From assembly GCF_014851565.1 (NCBI RefSeq), contig NZ_JACVAA010000005.1, positions 62,001 to 126,000 of the forward strand: DNA of 64,000 nt, read 5' to 3'. Under the pieces are notes generated by a model that was not told the origin of the DNA, made no database searches, and saw only the letters and a list, made by a program, of their open reading frames with translations. The translations under genes and the position numbers were made by a program. Below are positions 34,997 to 41,627 of the stretch, piece after piece (within the stretch, counting starts at the first letter, position 1; every line of letters starts with the position of its first letter). Origin of the DNA: Pseudomonas sp. PDM15 (lineage in GTDB: Bacteria; Pseudomonadota; Gammaproteobacteria; Pseudomonadales; Pseudomonadaceae).

Positions 34997-36010
34997 ATGT
35001 CCTCTCTCGACCAGGCGCTCTCCGCCGCCCTCGATGCCCGCCAGCCCCTGCTGGCAGAGCTGCACCAGCAGCAGACCGACTGCTACCGGCTGTTCCATGG
35101 CAGCCAGGAAGGCGCACCCGGCCTCACCATCGACCGTTACGGCCCGCAACTGATGGTGCAGAGCTTCCATCAGACGCTGGAAAGCGATGCCCTGCTCGCC
35201 CTGCACGCAACCATCAACCAGCGCCTCGACCTCGATCTGCAACTGGTCTACAACGACCGCTCCGGCGGCAACTCGCGCGTCGACCGCCGCGACCCGGTGT
35301 ACCAGGCCACGCCCGAGGCGCTGGAAGACCAGATCGGCCATGAATGGGGACTCAACTACCGGGTACGCGGCCGCCATCCGGGCCAGGACCCGCTGCTGTT
35401 CCTCGACCTGCGCAACGCCCGCGGCTGGGTCAAGGCCAACAGCGCCGGCAAGAGCGTGCTCAACTTGTTCGCCTACACCTGCGGCGTCGGCCTGTGCGCC
35501 GCGGCCGGTGGCGCGCGCGAAGTGCTCAACCTGGACTTCGCCGAGGGCAACCTGGCGGTGGGCCGCGAGAACGTGGCGCTTAATCCGGGACTGGCGATGG
35601 ACTTCGTGCAGTCCGACTACTTTCCCGCCATCCGCCAGCTGGCCGGCCTGCCCATTGCCGCCCGTCGCGGGCACAAGCTGCCGAGCTACCCGCGCCTGGA
35701 ACAGCGCCAGTTCGACCTGGTATTGCTCGACCCGCCGGCCTGGGCCAAGAGCGCATTCGGCACCGTCGACCTGTTGCGCGACTACCAGAGTCTGCTCAAG
35801 CCGGCGATCCTCGCCACTGCCGAGGACGGCGTGCTGATCTGCTGCAACAACCTGGCGAAAGTGGCGATGGACGACTGGCGCCCGCAGGTGCTGCGCTGCG
35901 CCGAGAAACTCGGTCGCCCGGTGCGCGAATGCGAGCAGATCGTCCCCGCTGCCGACTTCCCCTCGCGCGACGGCCAGCCGCCACTGAAGACCCTGGTGCT
36001 GCGCTTCTAA
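34997..36010 (+). CDS. SAM-dependent RNA methyltransferase (RlmI/RlmK-like)
   Basis: A 337-residue class I methyltransferase. The N-terminal part (about 1-110, with GLTIDRYGPQLMVQ) resembles the PUA-adjacent domain of 23S rRNA methyltransferases. The SAM site is LNLFAYTCGVG and the catalytic DPPAW motif is LLDPPAWAKS, as in RlmI-like enzymes. No Cys catalytic pair is obvious. The exact rRNA target cannot be read. It is a single gene after a terminator and 76 nt before the DUF748 gene. Confidence 0.85.
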   Translation: MSSLDQALSAALDARQPLLAELHQQQTDCYRLFHGSQEGAPGLTIDRYGPQLMVQSFHQTLESDALLALHATINQRLDLDLQLVYNDRSGGNSRVDRRDPVYQATPEALEDQIGHEWGLNYRVRGRHPGQDPLLFLDLRNARGWVKANSAGKSVLNLFAYTCGVGLCAAAGGAREVLNLDFAEGNLAVGRENVALNPGLAMDFVQSDYFPAIRQLAGLPIAARRGHKLPSYPRLEQRQFDLVLLDPPAWAKSAFGTVDLLRDYQSLLKPAILATAEDGVLICCNNLAKVAMDDWRPQVLRCAEKLGRPVRECEQIVPAADFPSRDGQPPLKTLVLRF

Positions 36011-36086: not shown

Positions 36087-39000
36087 ATGTACCGCACCAT
36101 GCCCAAAGGATTGAAACGCGCCGCCTACGCGCTCGCGATTGCATTCGGCCTGTATAGCCTGCTCGGTTTCCTGATCCTGCCAGGCATTGCGCTGCGGGTG
36201 GCCAACCAGCAACTGACCCAGCTGGCCACCGTGCCGGCGCGCCTGGAGCGCATCGAGCTCAACCCCTTCAGCCTGGAGCTGCAGCTCTGGGGCCTGCATA
36301 TCGGCGAGCCGGCCAAGCCGCAGGTCGCCTTCCAGCGTCTATACGCCAACCTGCAACTGAACAGTCTGTGGAGCGGCGCCCTGCACCTGGCCGACATCGA
36401 GCTGGAGAAGGCGCATACCGAGGTGCTGTTCGCCAAGGACGGCAAGCTCAACCTGACCGGCCTGTTCCAGCTGCCGCCCAGCGAAGAGAAACCCGCAACG
36501 GAGGAGCCGAGCGAGCCCTTCCCGCTGCGCATCGGTCGCATCGCCCTGATCGAGAACGGCCTGCACTTCGAGGACCTGCGCCCCAGCGAGCCGGTGGAGT
36601 TCATCTACGACTCGCTCAATCTGGAGCTTACCAACCTCAGCACCCTGCCCGACGACAACGCCAACATGCAGATGGTCGCCGTCGGCCCGCGCGGCGGGCG
36701 CATCGACTGGCAGGGCCAGGTCAGCCTTACCCCGATCACCTCCAAGGGCCAGCTCAAGATCACCGACGGCAAGCTCAAGGGTGTGTGGCCCTATGTGCGC
36801 GATGCCGTGCCATTGGTGCTGGAGGACGGCGTGCTCGACCTCAGCGCCGACTACTCGCTGAACCTGGCCGAGGGCACCGAGCTGCAGCTGAGCAACGTCA
36901 GTGCGGCGCTCTCCACCTTCGCCATCAAGAGCCCCGAGGACAAGCCGCTGGTGCGCCTGGAACGCCTGGACGTCAGTGAAACCAGCCTGGACCTGGCCAA
37001 GCAGCAGGTGGTGATCGGCAAGATCCGCAGCCACAAGCTGGAGACCTGGGCCGCCCGCGAGAAAGACGGCCAGCTGGACTGGCAGAAGCTGTTCGCCAGC
37101 CATAGTAAGCCTGCTCCGGCAGCCGCACCTGCTGACTCGCAGCCCCTCGCCGCCGCGCCCGAAGCTCCGGCTCCGGCTCCGGCTCCGGCTCCGAACGAGG
37201 TTGGCGCAGGCTCCACTCCCGCAACAGCCGCACCGGATGCTTCTCAACAAACAGCCAGCGCCGCCGCTCCGACAGAGCCGAAAAAACCGGAAGAACCGGC
37301 CAAACCCTGGCAGGTGCTGCTGCGCGATGTGCAGCTGCGCGAGTACCAGATCCACCTGGCCGACCGCGCCGCAGGCAGCCAGGAGGTCAAGCTCGACCTG
37401 GCCCCGCTCAATCTCGACATCAAGGACTTCGACAGCCTTGGCACCTCGCCCTTCGCCCTCAAGCTCGATACCAGTGTGAACAAGCGCGGCCAGATCCAGG
37501 CCGAAGGCCAGGTCCAGCTACAGCCGACCACCGCCAAGCTGCAGCTGGTCACTCGCGATATCGACCTGCGTCTGGCGCAGTCCTACATCAGCCCCTTCGT
37601 CCGTCTGGAGCTGCGCAGTGGCCTGCTCGGCAGCGACCTGGCCGTGGACCTGAAGAGTGTCGACCCGCTGGCCTTCAGCATCGGCGGCCGCGCCGAGGTC
37701 AACCAGCTGCATACCCTGGATACCCTCAAGGACCGCGACTTCCTCAAATGGCAGCAACTGCTGGTGGAGGGTCTGAACTACCAGCACGAGCAGGGCCTGG
37801 TGATCGACAAGATCAACCTGCTGCAACCCTATGCGCGCTTCATCATCAACGAGGACCTGACCACCAACATCAACGATCTGGTCATCGCTCAGCCCGCCGA
37901 TCCGAATTCCAAGCCGGCGCCGGCCGGCAAGCAACTGCCGATCCGCATCGGCGGGGTGAACATCAAGGAAGGCTCGGCCAACTTCGCCGACTTCAGCCTG
38001 ACCCCCAACTTCGCCACCGCCATCCAGCAACTCAATGGCCAGATCGGTACGCTGGACAACCAGAGCCCGAAGACCGCCAGCGTCGACATCAAGGGCAAGG
38101 TCGACAAGTACGCGCCGGTCACCATCAAGGGCGGGCTGACGCCGTTCGACCCGATGAACAGCCTGGATATCGCCACCAGCTTCAAGAACGTCGAGCTGAC
38201 CACCCTTACGCCCTACTCCGGCAAGTTTGCCGGCTACCGCATCAAGAAGGGTCGCCTCAACCTGGACCTGCATTACCAGATCGAGAAGGGCCAGCTCAAC
38301 GCCGAGAACAAGCTGCTGTTGGAAGACCTGCAGCTGGGCGAGAAGGTCGACAGCAAGGACGCCGTGGACCTGCCGATCCGCCTGGCCGTGGCCCTGCTCA
38401 AGGACACTAAGGGCAATATCGACATCCAGCTGCCGGTGCAGGGCAACCTCAACGACCCGCAGTTCAGCGTCATGCCCATCGTCTGGCAGACCATGCGTAA
38501 CCTGGTGCTGCGCGCCGCCCAGGCACCGTTCAAATTCATCGCTGGTCTGGTCGGTGGTGGCGAAGCCGACCTCAGCCAGGTGCAGTTCGCCGCCGGTAGC
38601 AGCGAGCTGGATGGCGCCGCGCAAAAATCTCTGGATACCCTGGCTGCCGCGCTCAAGGAGCGCCCGGTGCTGCGCCTGGAGGTCGAGGGCATGAGCGCCG
38701 AAGCCAGCGATGGCCCGCTGCTGGCCGTGCAACGCCTGGAGCGCGAGTACCAGAGCACCCAGTACAAGATGCTGCAGCGCAACGGCGATCAGGTACCAGC
38801 CGAGCCCGAGCTGCTGGTGGTGGACGAGGACGACAAGGCCGTACTGCTGGAAGGCATCTACCGTACCCGGCTGAAGCAACAGCCGCCCGCAGAATGGAAG
38901 GAACTGCCGGACGAAGAACGCACGGCGAAGATGCGCAACGCCGTACTGGAGTCGTGGTCCAAGAGCGAACTGCTGCTGCGCCAACTCGGCCAGGCCCGCG

Positions 39001-39134
39001 CGGCCAGCATCAAGGATTACCTAGTGGAGCGCGGCGGCCTGGAAGACCAGCGCATCTATCTGCTCGATGTCAGCCTGGCGCAGGGCCAGGCCGGCGGCCA
39101 GGTTGCCACGGCGCTGCACTTGGGAAGCTTGTGA
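36087..39134 (+). CDS. DUF748 (AsmA-like) envelope protein
   Basis: A 1015-residue protein with an N-terminal transmembrane anchor (about 10-35), then repeated beta-rich DUF748/AsmA-like segments (about 40-330 and 410-790) such as those proposed to bridge lipid transport between membranes. A Pro/Ala-rich linker lies at about 345-410. Residues about 830-880 look like a weak OmpA-type module (QFAAGSSELDG then a helix and RLEVEG). Either ATG at 36087 or at 36099 (MPKGLKR) may start it. It ends one base into the first DUF2845 gene (TGATG), so coupling is likely. Its function is not established. Confidence 0.82.
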   Translation: MYRTMPKGLKRAAYALAIAFGLYSLLGFLILPGIALRVANQQLTQLATVPARLERIELNPFSLELQLWGLHIGEPAKPQVAFQRLYANLQLNSLWSGALHLADIELEKAHTEVLFAKDGKLNLTGLFQLPPSEEKPATEEPSEPFPLRIGRIALIENGLHFEDLRPSEPVEFIYDSLNLELTNLSTLPDDNANMQMVAVGPRGGRIDWQGQVSLTPITSKGQLKITDGKLKGVWPYVRDAVPLVLEDGVLDLSADYSLNLAEGTELQLSNVSAALSTFAIKSPEDKPLVRLERLDVSETSLDLAKQQVVIGKIRSHKLETWAAREKDGQLDWQKLFASHSKPAPAAAPADSQPLAAAPEAPAPAPAPAPNEVGAGSTPATAAPDASQQTASAAAPTEPKKPEEPAKPWQVLLRDVQLREYQIHLADRAAGSQEVKLDLAPLNLDIKDFDSLGTSPFALKLDTSVNKRGQIQAEGQVQLQPTTAKLQLVTRDIDLRLAQSYISPFVRLELRSGLLGSDLAVDLKSVDPLAFSIGGRAEVNQLHTLDTLKDRDFLKWQQLLVEGLNYQHEQGLVIDKINLLQPYARFIINEDLTTNINDLVIAQPADPNSKPAPAGKQLPIRIGGVNIKEGSANFADFSLTPNFATAIQQLNGQIGTLDNQSPKTASVDIKGKVDKYAPVTIKGGLTPFDPMNSLDIATSFKNVELTTLTPYSGKFAGYRIKKGRLNLDLHYQIEKGQLNAENKLLLEDLQLGEKVDSKDAVDLPIRLAVALLKDTKGNIDIQLPVQGNLNDPQFSVMPIVWQTMRNLVLRAAQAPFKFIAGLVGGGEADLSQVQFAAGSSELDGAAQKSLDTLAAALKERPVLRLEVEGMSAEASDGPLLAVQRLEREYQSTQYKMLQRNGDQVPAEPELLVVDEDDKAVLLEGIYRTRLKQQPPAEWKELPDEERTAKMRNAVLESWSKSELLLRQLGQARAASIKDYLVERGGLEDQRIYLLDVSLAQGQAGGQVATALHLGSL
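37164..37193 (+). repeat. Hexanucleotide tandem repeat in the DUF748 gene
   Basis: Five perfect copies of GCTCCG, encoding an Ala-Pro repeat in the linker. Copy-number change would add or remove Ala-Pro pairs without shifting frame. Confidence 0.95.
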
Positions 39135-39424
39135 TGAACCGAAGTCTATTGGCTATTGCGCTGATGCTTTCCTGCGGTTTGGCTGAGGCCGGGACACTGC
39201 GCTGTGGCAGCAAGCTGATCAACGAAGGCGACCGTGCCTTCGAGGTCCAGCGCAAGTGCGGAGAGCCGGAGTATCGAGACCTGGTCGGCTATACCGGCGG
39301 CAACTACGGCGACCGCGAACTGGTGATCGAAGAGTGGGTGTACGGCCCCACCAATGGCATGCTCAGCATCCTCACCTTCCAGGGCAATCGCCTGGTCCGT
39401 ATCGAAACCAAGCGCGCAGACTGA
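39134..39424 (+). CDS. DUF2845 exported protein, copy 1
   Basis: A 96-residue protein: signal peptide MNRSLLAIALMLSCGLAEAG, then the DUF2845 core LRCG ... EVQRKCG ... EEWVYGPTNGM ... GNRLVRIETKR. Two Cys (in LRCG and KCG) probably pair in the periplasm. It overlaps the DUF748 stop by one base and is the first of three related copies. Function unknown. Confidence 0.88.
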   Translation: MNRSLLAIALMLSCGLAEAGTLRCGSKLINEGDRAFEVQRKCGEPEYRDLVGYTGGNYGDRELVIEEWVYGPTNGMLSILTFQGNRLVRIETKRAD

Positions 39425-39477
39425 CAGAAGACAGGCCACCGTGTAGGCTTCCGCCTCTCCACCTACGGCCACTCATC

Positions 39478-39783
39478 ATGCGCCTCAAACAGCTGTTGTC
39501 TGCCCTCTGGCTACTGCTGGCCAGCACGGCCGAAGCGGCCTCCACACTGCGCTGCGGCACCCGCTTGATCAGTCTGGACGACTTGGCAGGCGAGGTGGAA
39601 GACAAGTGTGGAACCCCAGTCCAGCGCGACTTCCTCGGCTACAAGGAAGTGCTCGATATCTATGGTTACGTCCATGAGGTAGAGATCGAGGAATGGACCT
39701 ACGGGCCGAAGAACGGCATGTACTACTTCCTGCGTCTGGAAGGCAATCGCGTCACCAAGATCGAAAGCAAACGCGGCAAATGA
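39478..39783 (+). CDS. DUF2845 exported protein, copy 2
   Basis: A 101-residue paralogue with signal peptide MRLKQLLSALWLLLASTAEA and the same pattern: LRCG, EVEDKCG, GYKEV then EEWTYGPKNGM and GNRVTKIESKR. It differs by a longer middle (YGYVHEVEI). The start has no strong ribosome-binding site but is the best by signal peptide; it lies 53 nt after copy 1. Confidence 0.85.
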   Translation: MRLKQLLSALWLLLASTAEAASTLRCGTRLISLDDLAGEVEDKCGTPVQRDFLGYKEVLDIYGYVHEVEIEEWTYGPKNGMYYFLRLEGNRVTKIESKRGK

Positions 39784-39818
39784 CAGCCCGTTAATCCCTC
39801 GGAACAAGGATGCTCGCC

Positions 39819-40109
39819 ATGAAAAAACTGCTCGCCATCACCCTACTCGCCCTGATCACTGCCAGTGCCCAGGCCTCGCTGCGTTGCGAGCACGGCATTG
39901 CCGACAGGGGGGATCGCACCTCCGAAGTGCTGGCCAAGTGCGGGGCACCGGCGAGCCAGGCCGTTACCGGCTACATCCTCGACAAGGATGGCCACGAGAA
40001 ATTTCAGAAGGAAGAGTGGGTCTACGGTCCCAGAAACGGCGGCATGCTGTATTTCCTGCAGTTCGAGGGCGAGCGTCTCGTCCGGATCGACAGCAAACGC
40101 AGCAACTGA
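39819..40109 (+). CDS. DUF2845 exported protein, copy 3
   Basis: A 96-residue paralogue with signal peptide MKKLLAITLLALITASAQAS. Core elements: LRCEHG, EVLAKCG, EEWVYGPRNGGM, GERLVRIDSKR. AAGGA lies 9 nt upstream of the chosen ATG; an earlier ATG at 39810 is less likely. The glycine after LRC is replaced by Glu-His. The rhomboid gene starts 15 nt after it. Confidence 0.87.
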   Translation: MKKLLAITLLALITASAQASLRCEHGIADRGDRTSEVLAKCGAPASQAVTGYILDKDGHEKFQKEEWVYGPRNGGMLYFLQFEGERLVRIDSKRSN

Positions 40110-40124
40110 CCCAGACATCCTCCC

Positions 40125-41579
40125 ATGCTGATCATCCCCGCCGAGCACCCGCTGGACTGGAAGCGCCCTCCAGTCATCACCCTGCTGCTGATTCTGCTCA
40201 ACACCCTGATCTACTTCGCCTACCAGGGCGGAGACGAAGCTCGTCGCGAGGTGGCGGTGCAGACCTACCTCGACGGCGGCCTGCTCGGCCGCGAGCGCGC
40301 GCTGTTCCTCGAGGACATCGCCCAACGGGAAAAGCTGGACGACGAGCAGCGTGAATATGTCGACCATATGCGCCGCCAGGAACTGGCAGGGTGGATACTG
40401 CACGACCTGCAGTTCGAGCACGCACTACACCAGCGCAGCGACTTCCGCGCCGATCAGGCCTGGCAGGCGGCACGCGCCAGGGCCGAAGAGGCGCGCAACC
40501 AGCTCAGTACATTCCGCTTCGGTTTCATTCCGGCGCAGTTCACTGTCGAGGGGCTGTTCGGTGCCATGTTCCTGCATGGCAGCTTCGACCATCTGCTAGG
40601 CAACATGCTGTTCCTGTTCATCTTCGGCTTCGCCCTGGAGATCGCCCTTGGGCGCTGGGTCTATCTAGGACTGTACCTGCTCAGCGGCCTCGCCTCCCAC
40701 CTATTGTGGTGGGCGCTGGACCCGGTGTGGGTCACCGGCGTGGGGGCCTCGGGAGCCATCTCGGGGTTGATGGGCACGTACATCGGCGTATACGGCCTGC
40801 GCCGAATCAACTTCTTCTACTGGCTGGGTCCGCTGATTGGCTACTTCAAGGCGCCTGCCCTGTGGATACTGCCGGTCTGGATGGGCAAGGAACTCTACGG
40901 CCTGCTGGCGGCAGACGATCACGTCAACTATTACGCCCACCTCGGCGGCCTCGGCGCGGGCTTCCTCGCCGTGTGGCTGGCACGCCTCAGCGGTCGCCTG
41001 CAGATGGACGAAGCCTATCTGCTCAAGGAAGACCCGGACGCACCCTTCAAGCGCGAACTGGCGGCCTTGGATCAACTTATCGGCCAGTTCGCCCTGCCAC
41101 AGGCCGCCATGCGCGGCCCCGATCTGCTGACCCGCTACCCAGGCCGCCTCGCGCTGCTTGAGCGACTCTATGCCGTGGCCTGTGGGCGCCAGGATAAGGC
41201 TCTGCTGACCCAGGTATTCAAGCAGCTGTTCGCTCTGCCGGACACGGCAGAAGCCAGACCACTGCTGCTGCGTATGGCCAACGACAGCAGCGAAACGCAC
41301 CGCCAGTTGCTGGGGCATCCCGCCATACAGTTGCACCTGCTGCAGAAGCTGATCCGCATTGGTGAAGGCCCTCATGGTCTCGCTGCATGGCGGCGGCTCA
41401 GCCAGATGCCACAACCACCCCAGCAGCTGCCTCCACTGACGTTGCAGCTGGCCAAACAACTGGGGCAGCGCCGGGATCTGCGAGCGGTAAGCGAGCTGGC
41501 CCAGTACCTGCGCAAGGCCTTCCCCGAGGCGGAGCAGACCCAGCAGCTGAGTTTCTATCAACAGAACCTGGCGCGCTGA
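40125..41579 (+). CDS. Rhomboid-family intramembrane serine protease
   Basis: A 484-residue multi-spanning membrane protein. The catalytic pair is Ser209 in GVGASGAISG and His272 in YYAHLGGLGAGF, with the conserved loop element HGSFDHLLGNML at 151-162. A soluble segment at residues 35-130, between the first two helices, and a 190-residue cytoplasmic tail are extra relative to the core. It probably cleaves membrane-anchored substrates in the inner membrane; the substrate is unknown. It follows the three DUF2845 genes on one strand and could share their transcript. Confidence 0.92.
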   Translation: MLIIPAEHPLDWKRPPVITLLLILLNTLIYFAYQGGDEARREVAVQTYLDGGLLGRERALFLEDIAQREKLDDEQREYVDHMRRQELAGWILHDLQFEHALHQRSDFRADQAWQAARARAEEARNQLSTFRFGFIPAQFTVEGLFGAMFLHGSFDHLLGNMLFLFIFGFALEIALGRWVYLGLYLLSGLASHLLWWALDPVWVTGVGASGAISGLMGTYIGVYGLRRINFFYWLGPLIGYFKAPALWILPVWMGKELYGLLAADDHVNYYAHLGGLGAGFLAVWLARLSGRLQMDEAYLLKEDPDAPFKRELAALDQLIGQFALPQAAMRGPDLLTRYPGRLALLERLYAVACGRQDKALLTQVFKQLFALPDTAEARPLLLRMANDSSETHRQLLGHPAIQLHLLQKLIRIGEGPHGLAAWRRLSQMPQPPQQLPPLTLQLAKQLGQRRDLRAVSELAQYLRKAFPEAEQTQQLSFYQQNLAR

Positions 41580-41585
41580 GCCCAT

Positions 41586-41613
41586 AAAAAAGCCCCGAAC
41601 TCGGGGCTTTTTT
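41586..41613. terminator. Bidirectional intrinsic terminator
   Basis: AAAAAA-GCCCCGA-ACT-CGGGGC-TTTTTT between the convergent rhomboid and csbD genes; it gives a T-tract on both strands. Confidence 0.93.
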
Positions 41614-41627
41614 ATGGCAAACGGCTG

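Follow-up and report, generated by a model that had tools for sequence, protein, structure and literature searches.

Tandem DUF2845 proteins encoded directly behind the AsmA-like gene epaF are candidate periplasmic partners of a putative phospholipid bridge in Pseudomonadaceae

The route by which phospholipid reaches the outer membrane, and the helpers that assist the hand-over by AsmA-like proteins, are an open question. In Pseudomonas aeruginosa, four AsmA-like proteins are redundantly essential, among them PA4735/EpaF, the member of Pfam family PF05359 (DUF748), which becomes essential once YhdP, TamB, and YdbH are absent and whose overexpression is enough to keep cells growing, with an intact outer membrane, when these three are missing (PMC10900882, family assignment in its Table 1). 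PF05359 also includes the short PA2708, of 361 amino acids (aa), and the authors of the EpaF study consider that AsmA-like proteins may have partners in the outer membrane that are still to be found, or else that some of these proteins may insert lipid unaided (PMC10900882). In Escherichia coli, ydbH and ynbE are spaced by −1 nucleotide (nt), an overlap for which strong translational coupling has been measured (PMC10666635; PMC6728339), and YdbH binds YnbE (PMC12977461, citing Kumar et al. 2024). Moreover, when neighboring E. coli genes have a spacing of −8 to +10 nt, 30.4% of the pairs encode subunits of one complex, against 6.8% of pairs more than 20 nt apart (PMC10666635). Here, we analyze a stretch of 64,000 nt from Pseudomonas sp. 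PDM15 (Pseudomonadaceae, Gammaproteobacteria; contig NZ_JACVAA010000005.1, positions 62,001 to 126,000), hereafter the window, in which a DUF748 gene is followed by three tandem genes for small exported proteins of family DUF2845 (PF11006), named D1, D2, and D3, and by a rhomboid protease gene.

The five genes lie on the forward strand, where a first-pass annotation made from the letters alone had put them: the DUF748 gene, here called epaF (36087..39134; 1015 aa; Pfam 985 bits), D1 (39134..39424; E value 2.9e-16, 60.0 bits), D2 (39478..39783; 1.8e-16, 60.6 bits), D3 (39819..40109, with an alternative ATG start possible at 39810; 4.2e-14, 53.0 bits), and the rhomboid gene (40125..41579). All three D proteins, which are predicted to be exported, score far over the Pfam cut-off of 21 bits, and they are the sole DUF2845 matches in the genome (4.84 Mb, 43 contigs; E 0.001). 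That annotation had also read D1 as overlapping the DUF748 gene and the rhomboid gene as following D3 within 15 nt, and both readings hold: the overlap is of 1 nt, with the D1 start inside the DUF748 stop (TGATG) and a Shine-Dalgarno-like GGGAAG at 39122-39127, 6 nt upstream of the start, and the three remaining gaps are 53 nt (D1-D2), 35 nt (D2-D3), and 15 nt (D3-rhomboid). Its remark that no such system was known does not apply to the bridge itself, DUF748 being the EpaF family (PMC10900882). Judged by family, length (1015 vs. 1088 aa), and nearness to pnp, the DUF748 protein, which like EpaF belongs to a family conserved across the genus, fits a PA4735/EpaF orthologue; pnp lies a few genes beyond the locus in the window and in many relatives, which agrees with orthology since PA4740 is pnp (PMC7641640).

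Linkage of DUF2845 to epaF was then followed in a sample of 99 genus genomes. All 99 have DUF748 and 66 have DUF2845, and in 64 of these 66 carriers DUF2845 comes immediately after the main DUF748 gene, with contig and strand shared (46 loci that were read, the window, and 17 genomes judged from match coordinates). In G075, one of the two remaining carriers, the two families lie on two contigs that both end inside D1, so that the link runs across a contig break; the other, G080, has three DUF2845 genes, none near DUF748. Counting G075, a single linked copy is present in 46 genomes, a pair in 15, and a set of three in 4. Furthermore, 80 named loci were compared, the best 80 of 313 relatives by likeness to D2, a choice that makes their copy numbers no random sample; one of them (L229) is nearly the window itself, and P. 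aeruginosa is not among them. Their patterns were EpaF-D1-D2 (48 loci), EpaF-D1-D2-rhomboid (11), EpaF-D1-D2-D3-rhomboid (10), EpaF-D1-D2-D3 (5), EpaF-D1-D2-other-rhomboid (2), EpaF-D2 (2), EpaF-D2-D3-rhomboid (1), and D1-D2-D3 cut by a contig end (1), the order of the D genes being invariant throughout. An EpaF-DUF2845 unit inside Pseudomonadaceae is thus supported.

The spacing at the epaF junction is short in nearly all loci. In 79 named loci plus the window, the distance between the epaF stop and the first DUF2845 start is −4 to +20 nt at 78 of 80 junctions, the outliers being 74 and 188 nt, and 28 of the 80 are overlaps of 1 or 4 nt. Among the 46 genus loci read, the start falls at −4 to +25 nt in 40, with 20 overlaps, and two loci have no start in range. 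Gaps farther down are −1 to 77 nt (D1-D2) and 25 to 62 nt (D2-D3) in the named loci; since start codons of the D genes were chosen by rule, single gap values may be off. This short spacing persists in relatives with EpaF identity down to 53%. D1 would be translated by ribosomes that have just completed epaF, and translation in that order would supply EpaF and D1 in a fixed ratio. By analogy with the E. coli pairs, in which short spacing is enriched for complex subunits, D1 is favored as a stoichiometric partner of EpaF, and co-expression without contact is also possible.

The first-pass annotation had proposed that the three small proteins share sequence patterns and arose by duplication followed by specialization, and both proposals are supported. 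LRC, KCG, EEWxYGPxN, and a C-terminal [RK]IxxKR occur in all three; identity to D1 is 47% for D2 and 43% for D3. In a tree of 81 DUF2845 domains, whose resolution is limited by its 80 columns, D1 forms a clade of 16 rows (support 100/99), D3 one of 6 rows (98/91), and D2 and D3 a joint clade of 24 rows (96/90), D2 alone being weak (17 rows, 80/77). The tree covers the genus loci fetched by then, with 17 linked genomes outside it, and omits a 59-aa fragment from G075, L070 (no recognized start), and one duplicate. Together with the gene order fixed in the 80 named loci, it indicates that D1, D2, and D3 are old paralogues. Some members of the genus carry, in addition, a second, unlinked DUF2845 group (L073, L079-L081, L083-L090). 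Median pairwise dN/dS (nonsynonymous to synonymous substitution rates) between relatives is 0.17 for D1, 0.21 for D2, and 0.10 for D3, from the first 60 pairs, the first 60 pairs, and all 15 qualifying pairs, respectively, with single pairs up to 0.81, and the D genes look to be under purifying selection as coding genes. The best named match to D2 comes from Pseudomonas sp. GD04019, with 99% over 80 residues; P. subflava and others rank next. In the literature searched, no paper uses the name DUF2845, and the locus tag PA4736, which we presume to be that of the P. aeruginosa DUF2845 gene, led to an unrelated paper.

Exactly two cysteines are found in the mature part of 75/78 D1, 81/81 D2, and 17/17 D3 proteins, and the pair would probably form a disulfide bond in the periplasm. 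Counted over the whole protein, two cysteines occur in 37/78 D1, 37/81 D2, and 13/17 D3; the window D1 has a signal-peptide cysteine, and the window D2 and D3 have none. A lipoprotein nature of the D proteins was set aside, the signal-peptide cysteine being unconserved (no lipobox predictor was used).

The first-pass annotation had suggested predicting the structures of DUF2845, DUF748, and rhomboid together; D2 and EpaF were modeled, as single chains. The AlphaFold2 model of D2 (predicted local distance difference test, pLDDT, 90.9) consists of a signal helix, a short hairpin, one helix, and a four-stranded meander. Foldseek gave no significant match for it (best E 0.74, BLIP entries among the best). 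VIA-align placed a Staphylococcus aureus secretory protein first (Z 8.6), above BamE, which was matched by many entries (Z up to 7.6, 2.5 Å, 62 residues, 21% identity), OsmE (Z 7.2), and BLIP (Z 6.4), and because a Z under 8 can reflect a common arrangement, profiles were compared as well. With hhalign, a narrow DUF2845 alignment matched BamE weakly (probability 48, 13 columns), and a broad one gave probability 87, E 3.8e-6, and score 32.5 over 56 columns; none of 100 column shuffles scored as high (best 16.0), and controls with a reversed profile or the rhomboid profile gave nothing. The broad alignment was built after the weak narrow result, so that this comparison is post hoc, and the shuffles test the score and not that choice. 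This alignment (A7) drew on 23 of the 30 class loci together with 8 from the genus and the 3 window proteins; alignment A4 comprised 61 of 63 selected relatives and the 3 window proteins, and A6 comprised 27 of 30 BamE loci. While the DUF2845 profile recovers 64/64 aligned members, Pfam BamE (PF04355) matches 0/64 up to E 10, and sequence search found no convincing solved structure (best E 0.0044, on the tau KCG repeat). A BamE-like fold, near BamE, OsmE, and BLIP, is likely for DUF2845, though not proven, and by these profile searches DUF2845 falls outside the BamE family.

The EpaF model (pLDDT 79; predicted template modeling score, pTM, 0.58) is fair, with a membrane helix at residues 7-46 (low confidence), a beta-rich tube of repeated long strands, and a low-confidence linker at about 339-403. 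The tube resembles bridge-like lipid-transfer proteins loosely: a Vps13 fragment came first in Foldseek (E 3.4e-3), and LPD-3 aligned with Z 10.3 over 381 residues, but with a root-mean-square deviation of 11.8. At the far end (residues 813-1015, window 38523-39131), residues ~813-1014 are modeled as an OmpA/Pal-like domain (Z 15.0, 2.1 Å, 106 of 109 residues) with an insertion near 890-957. Pfam OmpA passes its cut-off on residues 834-872 (30.2 vs. 27.2 bits), and no stretch passes alone. In an alignment of 38 of 77 EpaF proteins plus the window protein (A5), R971, which corresponds to the arginine that we take to belong to the peptidoglycan site of such domains, is present in 39/39 sequences; the column of the GHTD aspartate, presumably the second residue of that site, is Ala871, with an invariant Asp875 four residues on. 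On this modeling, EpaF ends in a degenerate OmpA/Pal-like domain, which may have weak affinity for the cell wall or offer a place for partners to dock. The accessible text of PMC10900882 has no match for OmpA, C-terminal, DUF2845, PA4736, or gene neighborhood, its lone "operon" being tamA-tamB, and among the literature searched no paper joined AsmA, an OmpA-like domain, peptidoglycan, and phospholipid transport, and a single one mentioned epaF together with AsmA. The epaF frame breaks between profile matches in 2/79 genes (L253, L307), by sequencing error or as pseudogenes, and these two were left out of the EpaF analysis.

Taken together, D1-D3 are probably helper proteins of EpaF. More specifically, we regard it as evenly poised whether they are disulfide-bonded periplasmic adaptors of BamE-like fold that are made in step with EpaF and act on it. 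EpaF would be anchored in the inner membrane as an AsmA-like bridge and help to move phospholipid to the outer membrane; the D proteins would probably dock at its far C-terminal, OmpA-like end, a placement modeled on the YdbH-YnbE and TamB-TamA pairs, and, once docked, help it to meet the cell wall or the outer membrane. D2 and D3 would be diverged copies that add contacts or regulation. Where present, the rhomboid would be an optional regulator, which could, for example, cut the single membrane anchor of EpaF.

Several observations count against such a partnership, in addition to the missing Foldseek match, the first rank of the S. aureus protein, the Z scores under 8, and the weak narrow profile match described above. 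In 33/99 genus genomes DUF748 is kept without any DUF2845; on the EpaF tree (81 rows, G080 scored as lacking linked DUF2845), absence of the linked gene needs 5 changes, at least 3 of them forced by well-supported branches; an induced plasmid with PA4735 alone restored growth (PMC10900882); and adjacency within one genus may be mere inheritance. Retention of DUF748 without DUF2845 and repeated loss mean that DUF2845 is not needed for the core job of EpaF, so that it is a stable but dispensable companion and not an obligate one. Outside the family the adjacency was not found. DUF2845 occurs in 62/369 genomes of the class, and among 40 class loci read in stretches of 6.7-12.5 kb, from 39 of these 62 genomes, DUF748 was not found beside DUF2845 in the 39 loci from outside the family and was found only in L185, from Pseudomonadaceae. 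Co-occurrence of the two families, in all values uncorrected for kinship, is weak: 14/63 vs. 10.3 expected without the own family (P 0.12) and 16/65 vs. 10.9 with it (P 0.051); for DUF748 matches above 500 bits, a cut chosen after seeing the table, it is 10/23 vs. 3.9 expected (P 0.0017), and 8/21 vs. 3.4 with the own family removed (P 0.011).

These class data are what a free-standing periplasmic envelope factor would leave, for instance one of outer-membrane protein assembly or stress, like BamE or OsmE, that shares the epaF transcript and makes no contact with EpaF. Such a factor would also account for the fold being nearest to BamE and OsmE, for the two-domain proteins encoded in one frame in 18 of the best 30 class loci, and for the lack of any consistent neighbor in the 40 loci when open reading frames within 4 kb were compared all-against-all. 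We nevertheless hold it to be rather unlikely, since the first DUF2845 gene sits far closer to epaF than membership of an operon needs, and most D1-D2 and D2-D3 gaps are longer than this distance. Plain inherited synteny, by which DUF2845 arose once behind epaF in the ancestor of Pseudomonadaceae and stayed there without functional reason, agrees with the linkage being seen in one family only and with the linked copies forming one group apart from the 12 unlinked genus copies, themselves a separate group (100/99). It is distinctly improbable in our view: the 33 genomes without DUF2845 show no match to it in the stretch behind epaF, which contains mostly BON and pnp; G080 is alone in having a copy of the linked group at another place; and the short spacing has been kept down to the EpaF identity given above, with purifying selection on the D genes. 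Preference for the partnership with EpaF leaves the rhomboid to be placed, which the first-pass annotation had joined with the other four genes in a single envelope module. Of that module, the EpaF-DUF2845 unit stands within Pseudomonadaceae; the rhomboid is an accessory to it, a long form being found in 5/99 genus genomes and 24/80 named loci. Under the refuting condition that the first-pass annotation had set, DUF2845 genes occurring at random without DUF748 or rhomboid, it is the rule that DUF2845 lacks the rhomboid, and DUF748 was missing beside DUF2845 in the 39 loci read outside the family. A proteolytically controlled system of five genes, with the rhomboid as a core part that processes the D proteins or EpaF, accordingly seems very improbable to us. 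In its favor, the gene is last and directly after the D genes whenever present (5/5 genus genomes, 24/24 named loci), with a gap of −1 to +58 nt in 21/25 copies, and its co-occurrence with DUF2845 in the class is slightly above expectation (9/29 vs. 4.9, P 0.037; 8/28 vs. 4.6, P 0.066, without the own family; both uncorrected for kinship). Against it, the rhomboid is absent from 61/66 DUF2845 genomes of the genus; the EpaF tree requires 10 changes in its presence, 6 or more of them forced, against a shuffled mean of 20.6, a distribution that is clustered but patchy; elsewhere in the class it does not adjoin DUF2845; and the D proteins, judged by eye, lack a further hydrophobic segment past the signal peptide.

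The rhomboid itself (484 aa; Pfam Rhomboid 81.7 bits, residues 143-286) has ~100 residues between the first transmembrane helix (TM1) and the rhomboid core, plus a long C-terminal extension. Its GxSG (Ser) and AHxGG (His) motifs are present in 25/25 locus copies and GNMLFL in 24/25 (GNMVFL in L294), and median dN/dS is 0.27; it is, from these features, an active-looking accessory and an optional extra of the locus. Assignment to rhombosortase (TIGR03902) was rejected at 28.4 of the 84 bits needed, as was cleavage of the D proteins, in view of their lack of that further hydrophobic segment and of the mostly absent rhomboid. Six more genus genomes have only weak, short rhomboid matches. In the class, counting as long those matches that start at residue 1-3 among the 75 genomes listed (G320, starting at 18, and shorter ones excluded), the long form occurs in 29/369 genomes; of the 28 besides the window genome, 20 have no DUF2845 match, 7 have DUF2845 elsewhere, and one (G445, locus L174) has it near, 2 kb away on the opposite strand with two genes between. 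All eight other genomes with both were read at the DUF2845 locus.

Beyond the unit, an S-adenosylmethionine-dependent methyltransferase gene (PF10672; Pfam match; 34997..36010, forward strand) ends 76 nt before epaF and adjoins DUF748 in 46/46 linked genus loci read; it is a constant upstream neighbor and, as to membership of the unit, a candidate. The gene run ends in an intrinsic-terminator-like hairpin with a T tract (41580..41618, forward strand; −27.1 kcal/mol), directly 3' of the rhomboid stop, with z −6.15 against 200 shuffles; it is missing from the terminator list of the consensus scan, and the promoter scan of the window was uninformative (0 sites vs. 1.0 expected). Several genomes, most of them without DUF2845, have a pair of consecutive BON-domain matches, in one gene or two, ahead of pnp (L095, L099, L103, L105, L107, L109, L111, L114, L123, L125; also L074). 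In the class loci, the two-domain DUF2845 proteins are ~200 aa, exported, and from outside Pseudomonas (L129-L158, e.g., L132, L135, L138, L140, L145), which makes domain repetition a theme of the family, and the comparison of open reading frames gave, besides, a cluster of large proteins of no assigned identity, which recurs in 6 loci at distances of 68 to 3146 nt and on one side or the other, as well as an antisense cluster and a few three-locus clusters.

In brief, the locus names concrete candidates for partners of EpaF, gives DUF2845 a likely fold and place, and draws attention to the OmpA/Pal-like domain in which EpaF ends. Tentatively, and with less confidence than in the adaptor role, we propose that in Pseudomonadaceae the fourth phospholipid bridge, EpaF, has dedicated, tandem, disulfide-bonded partners of BamE-like fold, which would be co-translated with it and dock on a repurposed OmpA/Pal-like tip, so that the same gene layout would have evolved with partners of another kind than YnbE or TamA and without relation to them, and that in some lineages a rhomboid was added that could cut the bridge loose. 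Among known systems, YdbH-YnbE(-YdbL) of E. coli is alike in that an AsmA-like gene is overlapped by 1 nt by the gene of a small exported protein. It differs in that YnbE is an outer-membrane lipoprotein, while D2 and D3, having no lipobox cysteine, appear to be soluble and are BamE-like in predicted fold, and in that EpaF belongs to PF05359 and YdbH to PF11739 (PMC10900882, Table 1). TamB-TamA is likewise an AsmA-like bridge of the inner membrane whose dedicated partner is encoded beside it; however, TamA is an outer-membrane beta-barrel (PMC12977461), and the gene run contains no such gene. The rhomboid agrees with rhomboid proteases (PF01694) in its Pfam match and its Ser and His motifs, and differs from them in its large insert after TM1 and its long C-terminal extension. 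Finally, DUF2845 resembles BamE/OsmE (PF04355) and BLIP in its predicted fold, a helix followed by an antiparallel meander, and has the pattern GxxxxxVxxxxGxP, WxY, LxF in common with BamE/OsmE, from which it is set apart by a conserved cysteine pair and by the lack of a conserved lipid anchor.

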